From a bacterium ADurb.Bin243 (GTDB taxonomy: Bacteria > Muiribacteriota > UBA9980), in assembly GCA_002069765.1 (NCBI GenBank), contig MWBZ01000004.1, forward strand, positions 1 to 64,000: a stretch of DNA of 64,000 nucleotides, written 5' to 3'. The position numbers and the translations under genes were made by a program. Below the pieces are notes generated by a model that had not been told where the DNA came from, did not search any database, and was given only the letters and a program-made list of their open reading frames with translations. Shown here in pieces: positions 51,916-61,595 of the stretch (within the stretch, counting starts at the first letter, position 1; each line of letters starts with the position of its first letter).

Positions 51916-52527
51916 TTAAGCTTTAAGGTTAAGCCCGGGAGCGGATTTCGTTTTTTTCTGTTCATCGAAAACGAAATTGATTATAGCTTCCCTGTCGGTT
52001 TCGTTTATTTCAAGAAAAATTACGCCCACCTTGAAGACCATTTCGTTTTCGAACATTTCCCTTACGATGCGAGACAGCTTTCCTTTTACCGCGATAACCC
52101 TCGATCCGTCTATGTTCAATTCTATGTCGAAAATAGAGTTCAAATGCGGCATGGCGTCGTAAAAAGCGAACAGCATGCCGCCGCCCGAAATATTTATTAT
52201 TCTCGTCCTATAGCATTTTTCAGGTTCGCCCACTTCCCTGACGGTAGCCTTCAGCTTGCCGCTGGAATCCACTTCGGCCGAGTTTTTCTCTATGGCGTCC
52301 ATCGCCGAAAGCCTGAAGTATTGTCTTCTGGAATGCTCTTCCGTCTTTCCGGCCTCGCTGAGAGTAAGCGTTATGGCGCCGTCCATCTTTTTTTCGAGTA
52401 TCTTGAAAGTAATGGCGCAAACTTCGTTCGAGCCGATAAAATTGACCGAAACGAAATCCCCCACTATTAAAGGTATAGCTTCGCCGCGGCTGTTTTTAGG
52501 CTCCGCCTCGAAAGTAAGTTTAATCAT
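51916..52527 (-). CDS. PilZ-domain (c-di-GMP receptor) protein
   Basis: 203 residues. An N-terminal YcgR-N-like beta region (about 1-75) is followed by a PilZ domain (about 78-195). The c-di-GMP ligand motifs are present: RRQYFR and INISGGGM. It likely senses the nucleotide made by cyclases such as the GGDEF protein in this window and controls motility or surface export. GGAAG precedes the ATG; a promoter sits just upstream, making it the first gene of the run to yvcK-queA. Confidence 0.87.
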   Translation of the reverse strand: MIKLTFEAEPKNSRGEAIPLIVGDFVSVNFIGSNEVCAITFKILEKKMDGAITLTLSEAGKTEEHSRRQYFRLSAMDAIEKNSAEVDSSGKLKATVREVGEPEKCYRTRIINISGGGMLFAFYDAMPHLNSIFDIELNIDGSRVIAVKGKLSRIVREMFENEMVFKVGVIFLEINETDREAIINFVFDEQKKTKSAPGLNLKA

Positions 52528-52556: not shown

Positions 52557-52586
52557 ATTATATCATATAACCTATCGATTTGTCAA
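52557..52586 (-). promoter_or_regulatory. Strong promoter of the PilZ-yvcK-queA run
   Basis: Minus strand TTGACA (52586-52581), 18-base spacer, TATAAT (52562-52557) with extended TGa. About 30 bases before the PilZ start. Confidence 0.75.
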
Positions 52587-52709: not shown

Positions 52710-55700
52710 CTATTTAGGCTGCTTCGCCGTTATCCTTTCGATAGATTCGATAATTTCGCGGCGGCGCGGCGTGTTCGGGAAACGTTCCAGCGCCTTATTG
52801 TACGCCTCTTTGGCGCGGTCCAGATCATACTTCGCGTTTTCGTATATCCAGCCGATCTCGATCTGGGCGTCGGGAGCGTTTTCGTGGTCGAAGTAACGGT
52901 TAACCATATTTTCGAAATCCTGAATGGCGGCGTCGTAATCTTTCATGTAGCGCTCGTTGACAAGGCCTTTCTCGTACTGCGCTTTTTTCGCGTAAAGCGA
53001 GTCCTGATAGCGGTCGATAAGCTCCTGAAAAACTTCCAGTGCGTATATATATTCCTGTTTTTGAATATAAAGAGTTCCCAGGGTGTAACGGACGTATTCG
53101 GTTTTATCGTACTGCGGGGACTCCTGGACGATCTGGCGGTAAAAGCGGATCGCTTCGTCAAGATTGTTTGCCATGCGGTACATTTCCGCCAGCTTGAGGG
53201 CGACGTCGTAATATCGCGGATATTTCGGGAAGTTTTCTATAACGCGCTTGAGCGCTTCGGCCGCGCGGTCGAGTTTTTTAGTCTGCTCGCACACTTTAGA
53301 AAGCTCTATCAGGTAGCCGGGCAGCTTGGCGTCTTTTTCGGGCAGCGAATTGATTAAAGCTTCCAGCTTTTCGATCTTGATTTCGGGGTCTTTTTCCGCC
53401 GCTATTTCTATTTCAGCCGAAGATAGTGAAATTTCGCCAGTTTCGAGCGCCACTTCGAAAGTGCCCTTCTTCTGGTCGGCCTTTTTCTTTTCCTCCATCA
53501 TCTCGTCCTCGTCGAGGACCTGCTCGTGTATGCTCACGAACTTATCGGGAGAGGCCAATATTTGCGCGACGCGGTCTTCGCCCGTTTTGGCCCAGCGGGA
53601 TATAGGAAAGTAAAACTTTACTTTTCTGTACGCGTCCACCGCTTCGTCGCGTTTTTTGAGAAGCTCGTAGCATTCGCCGATCTTGAACTGGAGATATGCC
53701 AGGAAATCTACGTCTTCGGGCTGATTTTTAACTATGAACTCGCGGTATAACTCTATGGCTTTTTTGGGCTTGTTTATTTTGGTTTCAAATATGGCCCCGA
53801 GCGCGGTTATTCCTTTTATAAGAACGTCGTCTGGAACTTTCATTTGTATCATTTTACGGTAATATACCGAAGCCTTTTCGAATTCTTCGGCGTCGCGCTC
53901 GTAAAGCCTGGCCGCATAATAGAGGTAATGATAATTCGAGGGGTCGTCGGGCGAAGTTTCGACTATCTGAAGTAAATCCGCCACTTTCTTTTCGACTTCT
54001 ATGCGCCTGAATTCTTTTTCGGTTTCGCTTGTCAGCTTGAGTTCCGGCACTACTTCCTTTAAAGTTTTTATGGTTTCCGCTTTTTCCGCGATCTGCTTTT
54101 CTTCGTAGGCCGATTGCAGCAATATCATCGCATCGCCGTATTTTTTATCGCTTTTATGGGTATTTTTAAATTTTTCGAGAAGCTTGACGCCCTTTTTGGG
54201 CTGCTTGAGTTCTTTTATCAGAAGGGATGCCGCGCGGTACATAATTTCGCCCTCGTTTTCATATCCCGGAAACCGTTCGAGAATATCGTTCAATTCTTCA
54301 TAAGCCAGAGCATAGTCGAAGGTTTTTTCCTCGCATATCCTTACTGCCTCCAGCTTGTACTTGATTTCATCGGTATCGCCCGAAACGTAAGACGAACATT
54401 TGTTCAGATATCCAACGGCGTTGGCGTAATCCTTGAACTTTTCCTCGTAAATTTTAGCGTTTTCGTGCATCAATTCCAGCGATTTCTCGTCGCCGATATT
54501 TTCGCTTATGTACTTGTCGTTTTCAGCTATTTTCCTGTAATTTTCAACTTTCAATATCAGTTCGTCGGCCGCGTTAAAAAACTGCGGAAACTTATCCTGC
54601 ATCGTCCTTATCAAAAACAACGCCCTTTCATACTGCTTGAATTCTTTGGCGAGCAATGCGCTATGGCGTTCGTACGCGGAAAAAACCAGCTTCGGATACT
54701 GCGAATATTTCGCGGTCAATTCCCTGTAAGTTTCCGCGGCTTTCTCGTAATCGCCGGATTCTTCGTATGAATTTGCCAGCATAAACATAACGATAGGCAG
54801 TTTGGGCGAGCCCGGATTGGATTCTATATAACTTAAATATTTATTGGTTTTTGAAGATTTTACAGGCGGAAGCGCCATTTCACGCCTTAAATTATACGTT
54901 TCCTCGTCGATATCGGATTTTGGCTTTACGATAGAAACGCCGCCTTTTTTAAACCAGCTCGGAGCGCTGATTCCGATATCGCTCAAATCTACGGATTTTT
55001 GAAACCATGAATATTCGAGAGGTTTCGAAGGCTTACGAAACCACGAAACGTCTTCGGCATAAGCCGTAACGCGCCCCGACGGAATTTCCAGCCCGCCGTC
55101 TATAAGTTCCGCACCGGAATAATCAGATTTTTCAGCGCCGGCAGATTCGCCCGGAGTTCCGAACATCTTTTTTGAATAGTCGTAAAGTCCGTTCAGAAGA
55201 CCTTCTTCGCCATTATTCCCTACCGGAGACTTTTTTACGGCTTCGGCTTCTGTAGTGCCGCCCTTTTCAGAGCTTTCGAGGGACGTTTCGGAAGTGGAGC
55301 CGGACTGCCCGGCGGCTTTATCGCTTTCTTCCCCCGCGGCTTTGCTTTTTTCCTTTTCTTTCGCGGCGCTGGTTTCTATCGCCCTTAGATAGTTCTGAAG
55401 AACGTTGAGGTCGATGTTAAGAAGGTTGGCTATCTTCGCGTCGAGTTTTTCGGCCCTGGCTTCGCTTTCGTATTTTGACATTATCATGCTGTAGCAGCGG
55501 AAAGCGTCTTCGTAATATTTAAGATTGACCGCGTATATGAGGCCGGCTTCGAACAGCGCCATCATCTGGGTCCTGGAATGAAGGTCTTTCATGTTTATTA
55601 CCTGTTCGTAGCAATCCACTGCCGCCTTATAATCTTTTTCATGGGCCGCCAGCGTTTTTGCCAGAAGGAAAAGTATTTCCGAAAGAGTATTTTCATCTTC

Positions 55701-58040
55701 GGTTTTTTTTGCCATTTCGCGGAGCGTTTTTATGCCTTTTTCGGCTTCGCGCATGCCCTCGATCTCTATTTCGACGGCTTTTTTCTCGTACAGCAGAACC
55801 TCTTCCGTATTAGACGCCGTTTTTTTCAATTCGTCAATGGTAGAAAGGGCGTCTTTATAATTTTTTATGAATATTTCCTTTTCGAGCTTCTCTTCGAGCA
55901 CGGCCTTGAGGTCGCCTTCCTTCTTTTCTTTAGCCAGTATGACTTTTTTGCTTATTTCGCTCAGGTTTTCTTTATAATGGACCCCGAGCACCCTGTCCAG
56001 AGCGTCTTCGAAATACATGGAACCCGGATATTTTTTGACGATCTGTTCGCAAAGCTCGGCGGCTTTAGAGGCTTCTTTCGGGTTTTTTTCATATTCTTCC
56101 GCCAGCTTGAAAAGCACCTCGTCCTCGCGCATCGGAACTTTTTTCAGGAGCATCTGATAAATTTTGACCGCCTCTCCGGCCTTTTTAAGAACCGGCTGGG
56201 AATAAAGAGCGGCCAGATCGATTCCCGCCTGGTAAATCCATAGCTGGTCGCGGCCTTCGTCTATAAGCTTTTTATAATAGCGGGCCGCTTCGTTATATTC
56301 TATAAGTGCGGTTTCATAAATCTGGGCTATCTGATAAACGGCTTTATCGGCGCGCGGCGAATCGGGAAATTCGGTCAGAAAACGCTTATAAGCGTTAACC
56401 GCCATTTCGTAGTCTTTCAGGTCTTCTTCGTAAATGCGCGCGATCGTGTACATGGCGAATTCGGCCTCGGGGCCTTTTCTGGATTTTTCGATTATCTGTT
56501 CGTATGTTTGAATGGATTTTTTAAACTCGCTGCTTTCATATAACTTTTTTTCCTTGGCGAAAAGCGCGGAATAGCTTTTGTCAAATACTCCGGGCATCTT
56601 CCTGTTTGCAAGATCTTCAAAATCTTTATCGCGGCGGGTTTCTTTTATGGTTTTTTTAACGTCCGCCGCTATAAGCTCGCACGCCCGGGTGTCGTTGAAA
56701 TAATTTATGAACATAAGAGCGGCCCGAAACGCGCACTCTTCGGAATAAAAATCGTCGGCTGCGGTTTTATAGCCGAGAAGATATGCGGAAATTGCGTTAT
56801 TGATCGGGTGCTGTTTCGAATCGTTTTTAATTTCGGAAAGATAATTTTCCAGGCGGGCTTCTTTTTTATAAATATACTTGTGCGCCGAGTTGTCGCGGCT
56901 TAAAAATTTCTGAGTTTCAGGGAGATGCTCGTAATAATATCCCGCATAATAAGCCGCCATAACCGATGAAGAGTCGGAAACCGATTCGTAAAGGATTTTT
57001 TTATAATAGTCCAGCGCTTCGGGAGCCGCCACCTGGGGCGAGTGGAACTGGGCCAGAAGGCCGTAAATAAGGGCCGCGCGGCGCTTGATTTTCTTCATTT
57101 CATCCTCGTCGGCGTAATCGGATTTTTCTTCCATAAGCCTAGCCAGCATGGTTTTAGCCGTTTCTATGTCGGAAAGGTCGTAGGCGAAAATAAGCGACAT
57201 GTTCATAAGCGCGTCGAACTTATAAAGGCCGTCGGGATATTCCTTTAAAACGCGGCGGTAGTAAAGCGTCGCCAGATGCGCGTCCAGAAGATGAAATCCT
57301 TTGAAATATCCGACGAGATATTCAACGGTTTCATTTTTGCTGAATTCATAGCGCGAAGCGGCCATTTTATACGCGTCGATTATTTTTTCTAGAGTGGTAA
57401 GGGTCTGATTGTAAATTTCGGCGATTTTAAATAGTATCTGCTCGCGTTTTCCTTCTGATATGCGCCATTTATAGTAATCCTGATAATTTTCAACGGCCCT
57501 GTCGCGCTCGCCCATAGCCAGGTAGCATTCGGAAATGCGCTCTTTGGAAAGGTTGGCGTATTTCGCTTTAGGATAAAGTTTTATAAGTTTGTTATATGCC
57601 TCTACGGCGTCTTTATAATCTTCGGCCAGCTCTTTTACCAACCCTATAACGAAAAGCGAATAAGAAGGACCGGCTTTTTTTTTGTCTTTGCGGTAGCCCG
57701 ATATTATTTTTTTGAAGCGTTCGCGCTTTTCGCCCGCCAGCGATGATGTATAAAACTTTTTAACGCTGGCTTTTATATCGACCTCGGCGGTCGAGCGGGA
57801 AGTTCCGGCGGCCTTTTTTAACGCTTTTTCGGCCGGCTTATCTTTTGAAACGGCGCGCTCTCCGGCATTAGCCGTTTCTTTTTTTACCGCCGGCGCAGCC
57901 TGGCAGTAAGACGATGAAAATACGGCCGCGAAAATTGAAACGGCGAACAAAAAGCAGGCGGCTGAAAAACATTTTAGCGGCAATCTAAAAATTCCACGCT
58001 TTTGCGGAGGGGTTTTTAAAGCATATATATTCATAGACAT
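52710..58040 (-). CDS. Giant secreted/periplasmic TPR-repeat protein
   Basis: About 1776 residues from ATG 58040; an upstream GTG at 58052 is also possible (AAGGAAG is 11 bases before the ATG). A signal/anchor segment (about 25-48, ending near SSYCQAAPA) precedes a Lys-rich stretch, then long arrays of TPR units of the YfgC/BamD/YbgF type (for example LIKLYPKAKYANLSKERISE, YKRFLTEFPDSPRADKAVYQ). A linker near 885-1010 is Ser/Glu/Gly-rich and carries three SWF-x-K motifs. A second TPR array fills about 1060-1776. Such scaffolds hold envelope or secretion complexes together; the specific partner is unknown. It follows the HerA-TPR gene by 48 bases, probably the same operon. Confidence 0.85.
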   Translation of the reverse strand: MSMNIYALKTPPQKRGIFRLPLKCFSAACFLFAVSIFAAVFSSSYCQAAPAVKKETANAGERAVSKDKPAEKALKKAAGTSRSTAEVDIKASVKKFYTSSLAGEKRERFKKIISGYRKDKKKAGPSYSLFVIGLVKELAEDYKDAVEAYNKLIKLYPKAKYANLSKERISECYLAMGERDRAVENYQDYYKWRISEGKREQILFKIAEIYNQTLTTLEKIIDAYKMAASRYEFSKNETVEYLVGYFKGFHLLDAHLATLYYRRVLKEYPDGLYKFDALMNMSLIFAYDLSDIETAKTMLARLMEEKSDYADEDEMKKIKRRAALIYGLLAQFHSPQVAAPEALDYYKKILYESVSDSSSVMAAYYAGYYYEHLPETQKFLSRDNSAHKYIYKKEARLENYLSEIKNDSKQHPINNAISAYLLGYKTAADDFYSEECAFRAALMFINYFNDTRACELIAADVKKTIKETRRDKDFEDLANRKMPGVFDKSYSALFAKEKKLYESSEFKKSIQTYEQIIEKSRKGPEAEFAMYTIARIYEEDLKDYEMAVNAYKRFLTEFPDSPRADKAVYQIAQIYETALIEYNEAARYYKKLIDEGRDQLWIYQAGIDLAALYSQPVLKKAGEAVKIYQMLLKKVPMREDEVLFKLAEEYEKNPKEASKAAELCEQIVKKYPGSMYFEDALDRVLGVHYKENLSEISKKVILAKEKKEGDLKAVLEEKLEKEIFIKNYKDALSTIDELKKTASNTEEVLLYEKKAVEIEIEGMREAEKGIKTLREMAKKTEDENTLSEILFLLAKTLAAHEKDYKAAVDCYEQVINMKDLHSRTQMMALFEAGLIYAVNLKYYEDAFRCYSMIMSKYESEARAEKLDAKIANLLNIDLNVLQNYLRAIETSAAKEKEKSKAAGEESDKAAGQSGSTSETSLESSEKGGTTEAEAVKKSPVGNNGEEGLLNGLYDYSKKMFGTPGESAGAEKSDYSGAELIDGGLEIPSGRVTAYAEDVSWFRKPSKPLEYSWFQKSVDLSDIGISAPSWFKKGGVSIVKPKSDIDEETYNLRREMALPPVKSSKTNKYLSYIESNPGSPKLPIVMFMLANSYEESGDYEKAAETYRELTAKYSQYPKLVFSAYERHSALLAKEFKQYERALFLIRTMQDKFPQFFNAADELILKVENYRKIAENDKYISENIGDEKSLELMHENAKIYEEKFKDYANAVGYLNKCSSYVSGDTDEIKYKLEAVRICEEKTFDYALAYEELNDILERFPGYENEGEIMYRAASLLIKELKQPKKGVKLLEKFKNTHKSDKKYGDAMILLQSAYEEKQIAEKAETIKTLKEVVPELKLTSETEKEFRRIEVEKKVADLLQIVETSPDDPSNYHYLYYAARLYERDAEEFEKASVYYRKMIQMKVPDDVLIKGITALGAIFETKINKPKKAIELYREFIVKNQPEDVDFLAYLQFKIGECYELLKKRDEAVDAYRKVKFYFPISRWAKTGEDRVAQILASPDKFVSIHEQVLDEDEMMEEKKKADQKKGTFEVALETGEISLSSAEIEIAAEKDPEIKIEKLEALINSLPEKDAKLPGYLIELSKVCEQTKKLDRAAEALKRVIENFPKYPRYYDVALKLAEMYRMANNLDEAIRFYRQIVQESPQYDKTEYVRYTLGTLYIQKQEYIYALEVFQELIDRYQDSLYAKKAQYEKGLVNERYMKDYDAAIQDFENMVNRYFDHENAPDAQIEIGWIYENAKYDLDRAKEAYNKALERFPNTPRRREIIESIERITAKQPK

Positions 58041-58088
58041 CAACGTACGCACTTCCTTACGATAATTAGTAGAGGCGCCGAAGCGGAT

Positions 58089-61052
58089 TTAATTAGACTT
58101 TGACTGGCGCGCCATATTTTCGCAATCTTCGGCTTTTACGAAATCGCCCATTTCCTTGTATGTAAACGCTCTGGAAAGCCAGAGCCGCGGGTCTTCGGCC
58201 GAAACTTTTTCGGCCTTGTAATATTCTTCTATAGCTTCTTCGTATTTTCTTTCCAGCGTGTATGTTTCGCCTTTTACCAGATAGCCCTCCAGCGAGCGCG
58301 GGCGGGCTTTTATAAAAAGGTCCGCGCATTCATGGGCCTTTGCGATATTATTGGTTTTTCTATGCCATTCGGCCTTTTTGAGATTGATTTCGGGATCCGA
58401 AAGAACGCTCAGATAAAGGCGGCTGAAAGCTTCGAGCGCCAGAGCGTACTGATTGAGCTTTTCGTAGCAAAGCCCCAGGTCGTAGTAAAATTTTTCTTCG
58501 GCCTGGCAATCGATGGCTTTAAGCAAAACGTCGCGCTGCTTTTCGTATTCTTTGCCGCTCTCGTAGGTTTTAGAAAGCATATACAGCGCCTCGAGCGAAC
58601 GCGGGTTATATTCGACCGCTTTGATAAACGAAGCGAGGGCCTCTTCTTTTTTGCCTATCGAGTTATATATAAGCCCCTTGACGGCTAGAAGCTTATCGGC
58701 GCCCGGCCGTCCTTCCGCGGGAGAAGAAACCAGCTTCAGGGCGTCTTCGGTTTTTCCGGCGTCCATGAGCATCCTGGCTTTATATGCATAAATACTAGCA
58801 TTTTCCGGATCGACTTTTTTAAGCCTTTCCAGCGTTTCGGAGAGCTTTTCAAAATTTTTAATCTGATAGTAAAGTTCGGCGAGCGAAGCCATGGCCTGCT
58901 CGTCGGAAGGATTGGCCGCTATAACAGTTTCAAGGCTCGCCACGGCGCGTTCGTATTCTTTGAAGCGCATAAAGATCAGCGATGCGAGATAGTCGCATTC
59001 GTAAGAAGAAATCGAGCTCTGCTTCGCGATAGCTTTCGCTTCTTCGAGCAGCTCCAGGCTGTGGGCGTTCTGGCCGAGATAATAATTGATCCTGGCTTCC
59101 ATAAACTTGTATGAATATTTCAAATCTGCATTTTTTAAATGGCTCAGTGCCTTTTTTATTGAATTGTCGGCGGCCAGATAATCTTGAAGCGCTATGTAGA
59201 TCGAAGCCATCAGACGGTAGCCGTTATCGGCCGCCGGCCTTAAAACCACGTATTTTTGGACATTCTGAAGTGCCTCCGGGTTTTTTGACGCGCCGTGATA
59301 GACATCGGCGATGCCGAAATAAGAATCGGCGTATTCCGGGTCGATCTTTACCGACCGCTGGTAAAACTCGAGGGCTTTATCTTTATTGCCGGCCGACCTG
59401 GCTACTTCGCCCATAAAATAAAACGCCCTGGCGTGGCTGTAATCGCCCTGGCCCGTTTTAACGGCGCGGTCGAAAAACGCCACGGCTTCCTTGTGAGAGC
59501 CGAGCGCGAAATAGCATTCGCCGGTAAGGCCCAGCGCCTTTTGCGATTCCGGGTCTTTTAAAAGTACGTTGTGAAAATAAGGTATCGCGGCAGAATATTC
59601 TTTTTTTGCGAGCAGGTTCGCGCCCACCATTATATCGTCCGCGAACAGAAGATTCTTTTTCAATTTTACCAGATCGCCGTAAGTAAGAACTTTATGGAAC
59701 GTCAAAAGCCACCGCTCTTTAAACGCCACTATAGAGCCTTCTTTGGTTTTTGCGATGAAATCCCCTCCGGCCGCCGTTTTAACGAAAGATTCGTAACTTT
59801 CCAGAAAATAAGCCGTAGCCGAGATTCCCTGAATGACCTTGTCGCGGTCCGCTTTAGTCAAAAGCTTTCCGATAAACCATGTGTTGCAGTTGGTAAGGCC
59901 GCGGTAGTCGATATCGCCGGGATTTTGAGTGGCCAGAATGCAGCCCAGCCCGAACGCCCTTCCCTGGCGCAAAAGCAGGTTGATCGAGCTTTTGCTTTCG
60001 TTCTGAATGGGATCGTCCGGAAAAAACGATAGCTTCCCTCCGCCGATTTCGTCTATGTAAAATACCGCGCGAGGCTCCCGCGAATCACCGAGCTTTTTCA
60101 TGTAATTAAAAAGCGTGACCGCGATATTCGACAGCACGAGGTTTCGGTCGTCGAAATTATCGAGCATGGAAAGGTTGAATATATAAAGGTTCGTTTTATC
60201 GCCGGGATTTTTTTCAGCGCTTACAAGGGAGTTCATAATGGAATCTATCGATTCCCCGTCGTACCAGAGCGAATCCGCGCCCACCAGAAGAGTGTTGAGC
60301 CTTCTGATAAGAACCATTTTACGTTCGTCGGAAATAAATTCGCGCACTTTCAGCATTCCGATGCGTTCAAAAGGCACGTCGTATATGGCCTTTATCAAGC
60401 TGACGACGCCGGATTTGCCTTCGAGGTCGGCCCCCGTTTTATATAAATGCAGTATGGCGCTTTCGATAAGAGTTTTTTCCTCGTTCATGGCGCCGGCCGA
60501 AAGTTCGCCGAAAAGCCTTTTGAAAATAACCGAGGCCTGGTTAGATATGTGATTGAGCACCGTTTCAGGTTCGCTTCTCATCAGCTCTTCGAAATTAGCG
60601 GGGGGCGAAGTCAGAAATGAAATTGAAAACTGATCGTAAACGCGGCTTTTAGGCGTAAATATTTTAATATTGGTGCGGTTTCTAAAGTCCTGGATATCTT
60701 TTACGTCAAGCCCGCTTCCGTTGAGCATGAACTTGAATTCGGACAGGTTTTTTTTGATTTTCTCTTTCTGGTCTTCTTCAGAATGGCCTTCCACGAAATC
60801 GCTCACTTCGTTTTCGGAAAGATCGTAAAGCGGCACTTTTAGAGAGCTCAAATCGCCCTTCAGGTCTATTACGACGGCGGGAATCTGGTTTCTGAGAGCC
60901 TCTTCTATAAGGCATTTGCCCAACACTGTTTTTCCGGACCCGGTGGAACCGCAAATAAAAATATGGGTAGTCAGATCGAGCTTATTCAAATAATATTTTT
61001 CAGAAGTAGGTTTGCCGGACTTGATTACCCGGCCTAAAAATAAATCAGACAT
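58089..61052 (-). CDS. HerA/DUF87-type ATPase fused to a long TPR array
   Basis: 987 residues, cytoplasmic. Residues 1-460 form a HerA/FtsK-superfamily ATPase: Walker A GSTGSGKT (35-42), VVIDLKGDLSSL, Walker B AVFYIDEIGG (about 343), and LGCILATQNPGDIDYRGL with NTWFIGKLLTKADRDKVI. From about 470 to the end are about fourteen TPR units (for example YSHARAFYFMGEVARSAGNK, KALEFYQRSVKIDPEYADSY). HerA-like ATPases pump DNA or drive conjugation-like translocation; TPRs recruit partners. No NurA nuclease or conjugation gene is adjacent. AGGCGGA precedes the ATG. Confidence 0.88.
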   Translation of the reverse strand: MSDLFLGRVIKSGKPTSEKYYLNKLDLTTHIFICGSTGSGKTVLGKCLIEEALRNQIPAVVIDLKGDLSSLKVPLYDLSENEVSDFVEGHSEEDQKEKIKKNLSEFKFMLNGSGLDVKDIQDFRNRTNIKIFTPKSRVYDQFSISFLTSPPANFEELMRSEPETVLNHISNQASVIFKRLFGELSAGAMNEEKTLIESAILHLYKTGADLEGKSGVVSLIKAIYDVPFERIGMLKVREFISDERKMVLIRRLNTLLVGADSLWYDGESIDSIMNSLVSAEKNPGDKTNLYIFNLSMLDNFDDRNLVLSNIAVTLFNYMKKLGDSREPRAVFYIDEIGGGKLSFFPDDPIQNESKSSINLLLRQGRAFGLGCILATQNPGDIDYRGLTNCNTWFIGKLLTKADRDKVIQGISATAYFLESYESFVKTAAGGDFIAKTKEGSIVAFKERWLLTFHKVLTYGDLVKLKKNLLFADDIMVGANLLAKKEYSAAIPYFHNVLLKDPESQKALGLTGECYFALGSHKEAVAFFDRAVKTGQGDYSHARAFYFMGEVARSAGNKDKALEFYQRSVKIDPEYADSYFGIADVYHGASKNPEALQNVQKYVVLRPAADNGYRLMASIYIALQDYLAADNSIKKALSHLKNADLKYSYKFMEARINYYLGQNAHSLELLEEAKAIAKQSSISSYECDYLASLIFMRFKEYERAVASLETVIAANPSDEQAMASLAELYYQIKNFEKLSETLERLKKVDPENASIYAYKARMLMDAGKTEDALKLVSSPAEGRPGADKLLAVKGLIYNSIGKKEEALASFIKAVEYNPRSLEALYMLSKTYESGKEYEKQRDVLLKAIDCQAEEKFYYDLGLCYEKLNQYALALEAFSRLYLSVLSDPEINLKKAEWHRKTNNIAKAHECADLFIKARPRSLEGYLVKGETYTLERKYEEAIEEYYKAEKVSAEDPRLWLSRAFTYKEMGDFVKAEDCENMARQSKSN

Positions 61053-61127: not shown

Positions 61128-61595
61128 TTATTTTTTTTCGATTTTATAAGTCTCGCGATTTATGCCCGAAAATTCTTCCACAAGCGAAACGCCGTATGCT
61201 ATAACATATTTTTTGAATATTCCCAGCACCGCATAATTGACCTTCACTTTATCTCCGGGACAGGGATAATAATCGTAAGGATAGAACCTCGTTCTGGGCG
61301 ATAAAATAAGCTCGATAGACGTAGAGTCGCCGCAATCAACAACCATAATAGTTTCGTGAGGGTTAACGGGAGCCGAAACGCTCTCTACGACGCCCGTTAC
61401 CTGGCGCTTAACATCTTTCGGCGCGGCTTCGGGCTTCGCCGTTTCCTGTGAAGCCGCGGGAGCTTTTTCGGGCGCGGCCGCATTTTCCGCCGCGGCGGCC
61501 GGAACCGCGAAAACCGTTAAAACCAAAGCCAGAAATATCAATAAAACCTTTTCGATAGAAGCTCTTTTAAATATCTTTTTCACCGAAATCTTCAT
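61128..61595 (-). CDS. Small secreted protein of unknown function
   Basis: 155 residues. A signal peptide (about 14-36, ending near AAAAE) is followed by an Ala/Pro/Glu/Lys-rich linker (38-64) and a compact beta-rich domain (about 65-150; VTGVVESVSAPVNPHETIMV, GDKVKVNYAVLG) that resembles a small OB-like barrel. GGAAGG is very close to the ATG, so the start is slightly uncertain. Not recognised as a named family. It lies 75 bases upstream of the HerA-TPR gene and may be in its operon. Confidence 0.65.
   Translation of the reverse strand: MKISVKKIFKRASIEKVLLIFLALVLTVFAVPAAAAENAAAPEKAPAASQETAKPEAAPKDVKRQVTGVVESVSAPVNPHETIMVVDCGDSTSIELILSPRTRFYPYDYYPCPGDKVKVNYAVLGIFKKYVIAYGVSLVEEFSGINRETYKIEKK

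Follow-up and report, generated by a model that had tools for sequence, protein, structure and literature searches.

The window, that is, the whole stretch of 64,000 nucleotides that was analysed, comes from contig C4 of a Candidatus Wallbacteria-like MAG of 5.0 Mb, its closest named relatives being Candidatus Wallbacteria GWC2_49_35 and UBP16 UBA6123. No Rfam match and no tRNA were found in it. Both ORFs described in the original prediction are present, one encoding a 987-aa protein in which an ATPase domain is joined to TPRs (hereafter ATPase-TPR) and the other a giant TPR protein of 1776 aa, and their features are collected in Table 1. The coding part of the ATPase-TPR ORF, without the stop codon, spans 58092-61052 on the minus strand. 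The first in-frame start of the giant TPR gene is a GTG at 58052, a possible alternative giving 1780 aa. Because the ATG at 58040, which gives 1776 aa, is closely preceded by a Shine-Dalgarno-like AAGGAAG, it appears to be the better start.

Table 1. Features of the ATPase-TPR locus (positions in the window).
Feature	Position	Strand	Basis
Giant exported TPR protein, 1776 aa	52710..58040	minus	Pfam, start-site reading, phylum-wide alignment
C-terminal 210-aa block defining the giant TPR family	52713..53342	minus	Alignment, ten rows, six families
ATPase-TPR gene	58089..61052, including stop	minus	ATG start, 987 aa; orthologues in 6 other genomes
TPR tail, residues 471-987, ~14 repeats	58092..59642	minus	Pfam TPR models, AF2 helices, orthologue TPR tails
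HerA/FtsK-type ATPase domain, residues 1-462	59667..61052	minus	AF2 model and PDB fold matches
Walker B strand, ending in D334-E335	60048..60068	minus	D334 and E335 invariant in 55 relatives
Walker A GSTGSGKT, residues 35-42	60927..60950	minus	Alignment of 55 relatives
Small exported protein, 155 aa, upstream of the ATPase gene	61128..61595	minus	Genus only, fast-evolving

Pfam search of the 987-aa protein gave DUF87 (37.7 bits, cut-off 23.2) and HerA_C (29.3 bits, cut-off 22), as well as TPR models reaching 118 bits within residues 480-987; weak matches to TrwB/VirD4-type models were also observed. The full-length AlphaFold2 (AF2) model (mean pLDDT 84.8) consists of a RecA/HerA-type domain followed by about 14 pairs of helices at residues 471-985. 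Pfam, the intact motifs and the model thus agree on a HerA/DUF87 domain joined to about fourteen TPRs, as had been proposed. Since TPR matches swamped the full-length fold search, the ATPase domain was modelled alone (pLDDT 89.1, pTM 0.87), and its best PDB folds were HerA of Thermococcus (9x1m, 1.5e-14) and of Sulfolobus (4d2i, 3.9e-13), with further matches to antiphage HerA proteins and to the DndH C-domain (7es4, 1.5e-12). The TM-scores against HerA were only ~0.5-0.6, so the likeness is to be read as a family resemblance. The architecture, the motifs and the HerA-type fold are directly supported by these data. In an alignment of 55 relatives, G35, G38, G40 and K41 of Walker A were invariant and T42 was found in at least 90%; D334, E335, R365 and Q376 were also invariant, with R365 and T375-Q376 as a whole invariant or nearly so. 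In the AF2 model, only a beta-hairpin (residues 4-22, strands 4-11 and 14-22) precedes the P-loop, which starts at residue 35, and a long helical insertion (~80-285) follows the P-loop region. No signal peptide and no membrane segment were found in the protein (maximum hydropathy 1.09), which by its sequence features looks cytosolic. The pI of the TPR tails, 4.7-6.1, is acidic, which suggests that protein, not DNA, is their probable binding target.

Comparison with HerA of the HerA-NurA system (archaea and some bacteria; PDB 4d2i, 9x1m and 7wrx) showed a common RecA-type core with Walker A and B, the conserved Q and R positions and DUF87. Unlike HerA, however, ATPase-TPR has the beta-hairpin in place of the N-terminal HAS-barrel, carries the large helical insertion and the 14-TPR tail, and scores far below the NCBIfam HerA cut-offs (28.8 bits against 800 for HerA_antiphage, with archaeal HerA models absent among the matches). 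The absence of NurA, also claimed earlier, holds in that PF09376 was found in none of the 10 phylum genomes tested, while 7 of the 14 control genomes were positive. FtsK belongs to the same ATPase superfamily but is anchored in the membrane and contains a gamma domain, and ATPase-TPR has neither (no FtsK_gamma match). The T4SS coupling proteins (TrwB/VirD4) are defined by a membrane anchor and accompanying T4SS genes; of these features, only the membrane segment was looked for, and none was seen in ATPase-TPR. Identity with CedD/CedB of DNA import was rejected, as the NCBIfam matches span the P-loop only. Neither Pfam nor NCBIfam holds a curated name for the architecture, and the literature searched gave no paper describing HerA and TPRs within one protein. 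The components are of known kinds, and their combination is unnamed. Another DUF87/HerA-type ATPase is encoded in the same genome (L134:4717-8238, G000:C49); it is 1174 aa long, and its N-terminal 500 aa are uncharacterised.

The fusion is present in 7 of the 40 phylum genomes examined, which are all seven genomes of families f1 (four genomes, the genus), f4 (two, one of them Wallbacteria) and f6 (one, Muiribacteriota), and is absent from f2, f3, f5, f7 and f8. Its description as an uncommon architecture is borne out, and it belongs to no named family. The gene is single copy in the carriers, and all seven proteins have the TPR tail according to Pfam, from which the TPR calls were taken; a home-made HMM for TPRs proved overly strict and missed even the Muiribacteriota and f4 orthologues. 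The seven ATPase domains form one clade (support 100/99) that follows family descent, and a PglZ-associated ATPase clade lies with it in a well-supported 20-row group of the ATPase tree. The seven fusions are of common ancestry and, on the evidence of the tree, vertically inherited, the fusion being an evolutionary unit. Within the genus, dN/dS lay at ~0.05-0.08 in the ATPase half of the protein and at ~0.05-0.11 in its TPR half, with ~0.05-0.10 in the giant TPR protein. SpoIID and the small exported upstream protein had higher ratios, all values being approximate as several dS were saturated. This purifying selection indicates that ATPase-TPR and the giant TPR gene are real genes.

The same ATPase elsewhere bears other C-termini, and for this reason the tail appears to be the part that varies and sets the lineages apart. 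The nearest relatives end in a short tail, an Mrr nuclease, a coiled coil or zinc/cysteine-rich clusters, the last being how the C-termini of the Bathyarchaeota and Undinarchaeota relatives were read. HerA-like proteins of 800-950 aa from Chloroflexota, Planctomycetota and Clostridia belong to the same ATPase family (a relative at E <= 1e-40 was found in 69 of the 392 Planctomycetota genomes); their C-termini, where read, resemble a charged coiled coil, and no TPR was detected by the home-made model, which is too strict for divergent TPRs. A plasmid search gave matches to the TPRs only, and one viral relative is a stand-alone protein of 488 aa. In Phycisphaeraceae (L054:6638-9598), one protein combines the ATPase with a TPR-like stretch, as in ATPase-TPR, but it ends in an Mrr_cat nuclease domain and lies on a separate branch of the tree; it is likely a one-protein restriction system. 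The ATPases of PglZ/methyltransferase operons (BREX-related or type I RM-like; mad8) are 36-38% identical to ATPase-TPR over the whole ATPase domain; unlike it, they are ~655-670 aa long with a short non-TPR tail, have defence neighbours and spread horizontally, with Paenibacillus, Halopseudomonas, Ectothiorhodospira and others, from many phyla, as hosts. Their operon across phyla (L089:3-8980, L045, L046, L048, L050 and L070) contains PglZ, an HsdM-type methyltransferase and the HerA-like ATPase, with a specificity-type gene in some, and resembles BREX-related/MADS defence.

As to the neighbour, the original prediction of a giant exported TPR protein is consistent with its sequence. Pfam TPR_6 gave 152.7 bits, and the N-terminus has a hydrophobic stretch and, after it, an AXA-like site, with no later membrane segment, which makes "exported" a reasonable reading. 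Members of its family are mostly 1500-2000 aa long, have a hydrophobic N-terminus in those checked, and share the C-terminal 210-aa block. A profile of this block matched 38 of the 40 genomes at E <= 1e-15 and 34 of the 40 at ~6e-66 or better, the matches of the genomes that supplied the ten profile rows being so by construction. Matches were weaker in f4, and two further giant TPR proteins from this genome, taken as controls, scored below the f3, f5 and f6 relatives. ATPase-TPR is lacking from 29 of the 34 genomes with a strong match. Models of YbgF/CpoB and BamD were above the cut-off on the giant protein, but with scores summed over several repeats, and both identities were rejected because these models have ~120-260 positions against 1776 aa with a C-terminal block of its own.

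We then consider whether the two genes form a unit, since their products had been proposed to translocate DNA or protein together, one as the motor and the other as a trans-envelope scaffold. Throughout the genus (four genomes) the genes are on the same strand, 36-48 nt apart, and no minus-strand terminator-like site was found between them. However, leuS, SpoIID, the small exported gene, PilZ, YvcK and queA are also retained in the genus wherever the contigs reach, and synteny at such a distance is of little weight. In the other three carriers (G006, G008 and G010) ATPase-TPR is flanked by other genes, and a contig of its own holds the giant TPR gene, apart from that of the ATPase, so that the adjacency expected to be conserved is confined to four genomes of one genus, and no conserved link to the giant protein is seen. 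Moreover, ATPase-TPR looks cytosolic whereas the giant protein is probably exported, so direct contact would need a membrane partner, and none was found between the two. With the giant TPR family also occurring without the ATPase, the scaffold reading did not hold up and we regard it as very improbable; to judge from these comparisons, the two genes do not form a unit. A perfect TTGACA-18-TATAAT with an extended TG is located at 52557-52586 on the minus strand, immediately 5' of the PilZ gene (51916-52527), and suggests that a new transcript begins after the giant TPR gene.

A different pair of motor and giant TPR genes served as a positive control. The true FtsK of the genome is encoded on contig C17, and after it come two giant TPR genes whose products, of 1722 and 1312 aa, look cytosolic (L133:4714-16573, G000:C17). 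A TPR gene is located directly 3' of ftsK in 27 genomes (21 of the 21 f5 genomes examined, 4 of the 4 of f1, that of f6 and one of f4), the other 26 loci being L173-L177 and L203-L229; the order was counted for at least the first TPR protein, as some contigs end early and a frameshift breaks one f5 copy in two. The order was not found in f2, f3, f7 and f8. The first TPR protein is ~1565-1720 aa where complete, usually with the second giant gene after it, and an N-terminal four-cysteine motif, C-P-(F/L)...C-x4-C-x-F...C, is invariant in 27 of 27; the protein may be a scaffold that binds metal and is tied to FtsK. By gene order, ftsK and the giant Cys-motif TPR gene constitute the conserved motor-giant-TPR pair in the phylum. 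A true link of this kind thus outlasts family divergence here, and that of ATPase-TPR with its giant neighbour does not.

Two further functions have to be weighed for ATPase-TPR itself. It could be an anti-invader HerA/FtsK "capture" translocase (cf. BREX-related systems, DndH and DUF4297/Sir2-HerA) with the TPRs as sensor or effector dock. HerA translocases are indeed used in BREX-related capture systems (PMC12839542), PADLOC mad8 was the best defence model for the protein (2e-18), close relatives outside the phylum, spread over many phyla, are encoded beside PglZ, HsdM-type methyltransferase and specificity genes, and the Phycisphaeraceae relative ends in a nuclease. Nevertheless, no nuclease, PglZ, methyltransferase, specificity or sensor gene was recognised near ATPase-TPR when the neighbourhoods of the seven carriers were read by eye, and a defence island at the locus was rejected on this ground. 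The PglZ profile matched only G001 and G003 among the carriers, on contigs other than that of ATPase-TPR, and the flanking proteins scanned in the window had no Sir2 or nuclease effector domain of Pfam, the neighbours in other genomes being read by eye. The single-copy, vertical and strongly constrained gene with housekeeping flanks also differs from the horizontally spreading PglZ clade, and we consider a role in defence unlikely.

Some members of the FtsK/HerA superfamily, such as T4SS coupling proteins and EssC, act on protein. ATPase-TPR might similarly move or remodel protein, for example pilus or secretion components, instead of DNA, with the TPRs binding the substrate. TPRs usually bind protein, the weak TrwB/VirD4-type matches point in the same direction, and in f4 (L024:4330-6516, L025:5984-8174) the gene is preceded by a pseudopilin-like cluster and by one for an exported protein. 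On the other hand, no secretion partner is conserved across f1, f4 and f6, and the best folds are DNA translocases, which leaves this reading rather doubtful.

The explanation that we favour, while giving it only an even chance of being right as a whole, is that ATPase-TPR, encoded on the chromosome and inherited vertically, is a cytosolic member of the HerA/FtsK ATPase superfamily, probably a hexameric double-stranded DNA translocase without HAS-barrel and NurA, whose TPR superhelix is a dock for a partner, and that the giant TPR protein is a member of a phylum-wide envelope family, unrelated to ATPase-TPR and its neighbour by chance in the genus. The protein would probably assemble as a hexameric ring, which, from its fold and family, may move double-stranded DNA. 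The HAS-barrel, by which HerA docks NurA-type partners, would have been lost or never been there, and the C-terminal TPR superhelices, six per ring in a hexamer, may dock a protein partner instead, presumably encoded elsewhere and not next door. The flanks of the ATPase-TPR genes are leuS, SpoIID, PilZ, YvcK, queA or pseudopilin genes, and this housekeeping neighbourhood, together with vertical descent and strong constraint, favours a role in chromosome processing or repair over one in defence. A wider and quite tentative idea, which we think improbable, is that the phylum builds its DNA motors around TPR scaffolds, with a HerA-type motor carrying a 14-TPR tail in Wallbacteria/Muiribacteria and FtsK tied to giant cytosolic four-Cys TPR proteins in four families, the TPRs replacing nuclease or septal partners in targeting.

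These results indicate that it can be misleading to rely on gene adjacency where a genome is rich in TPRs, the link that survives between families being that of FtsK with giant TPR proteins. HerA-type motors are known mostly through a docked nuclease or effector, and a nuclease-free, vertically inherited motor of this type with a built-in TPR dock would be a test case for roles outside repair and defence.
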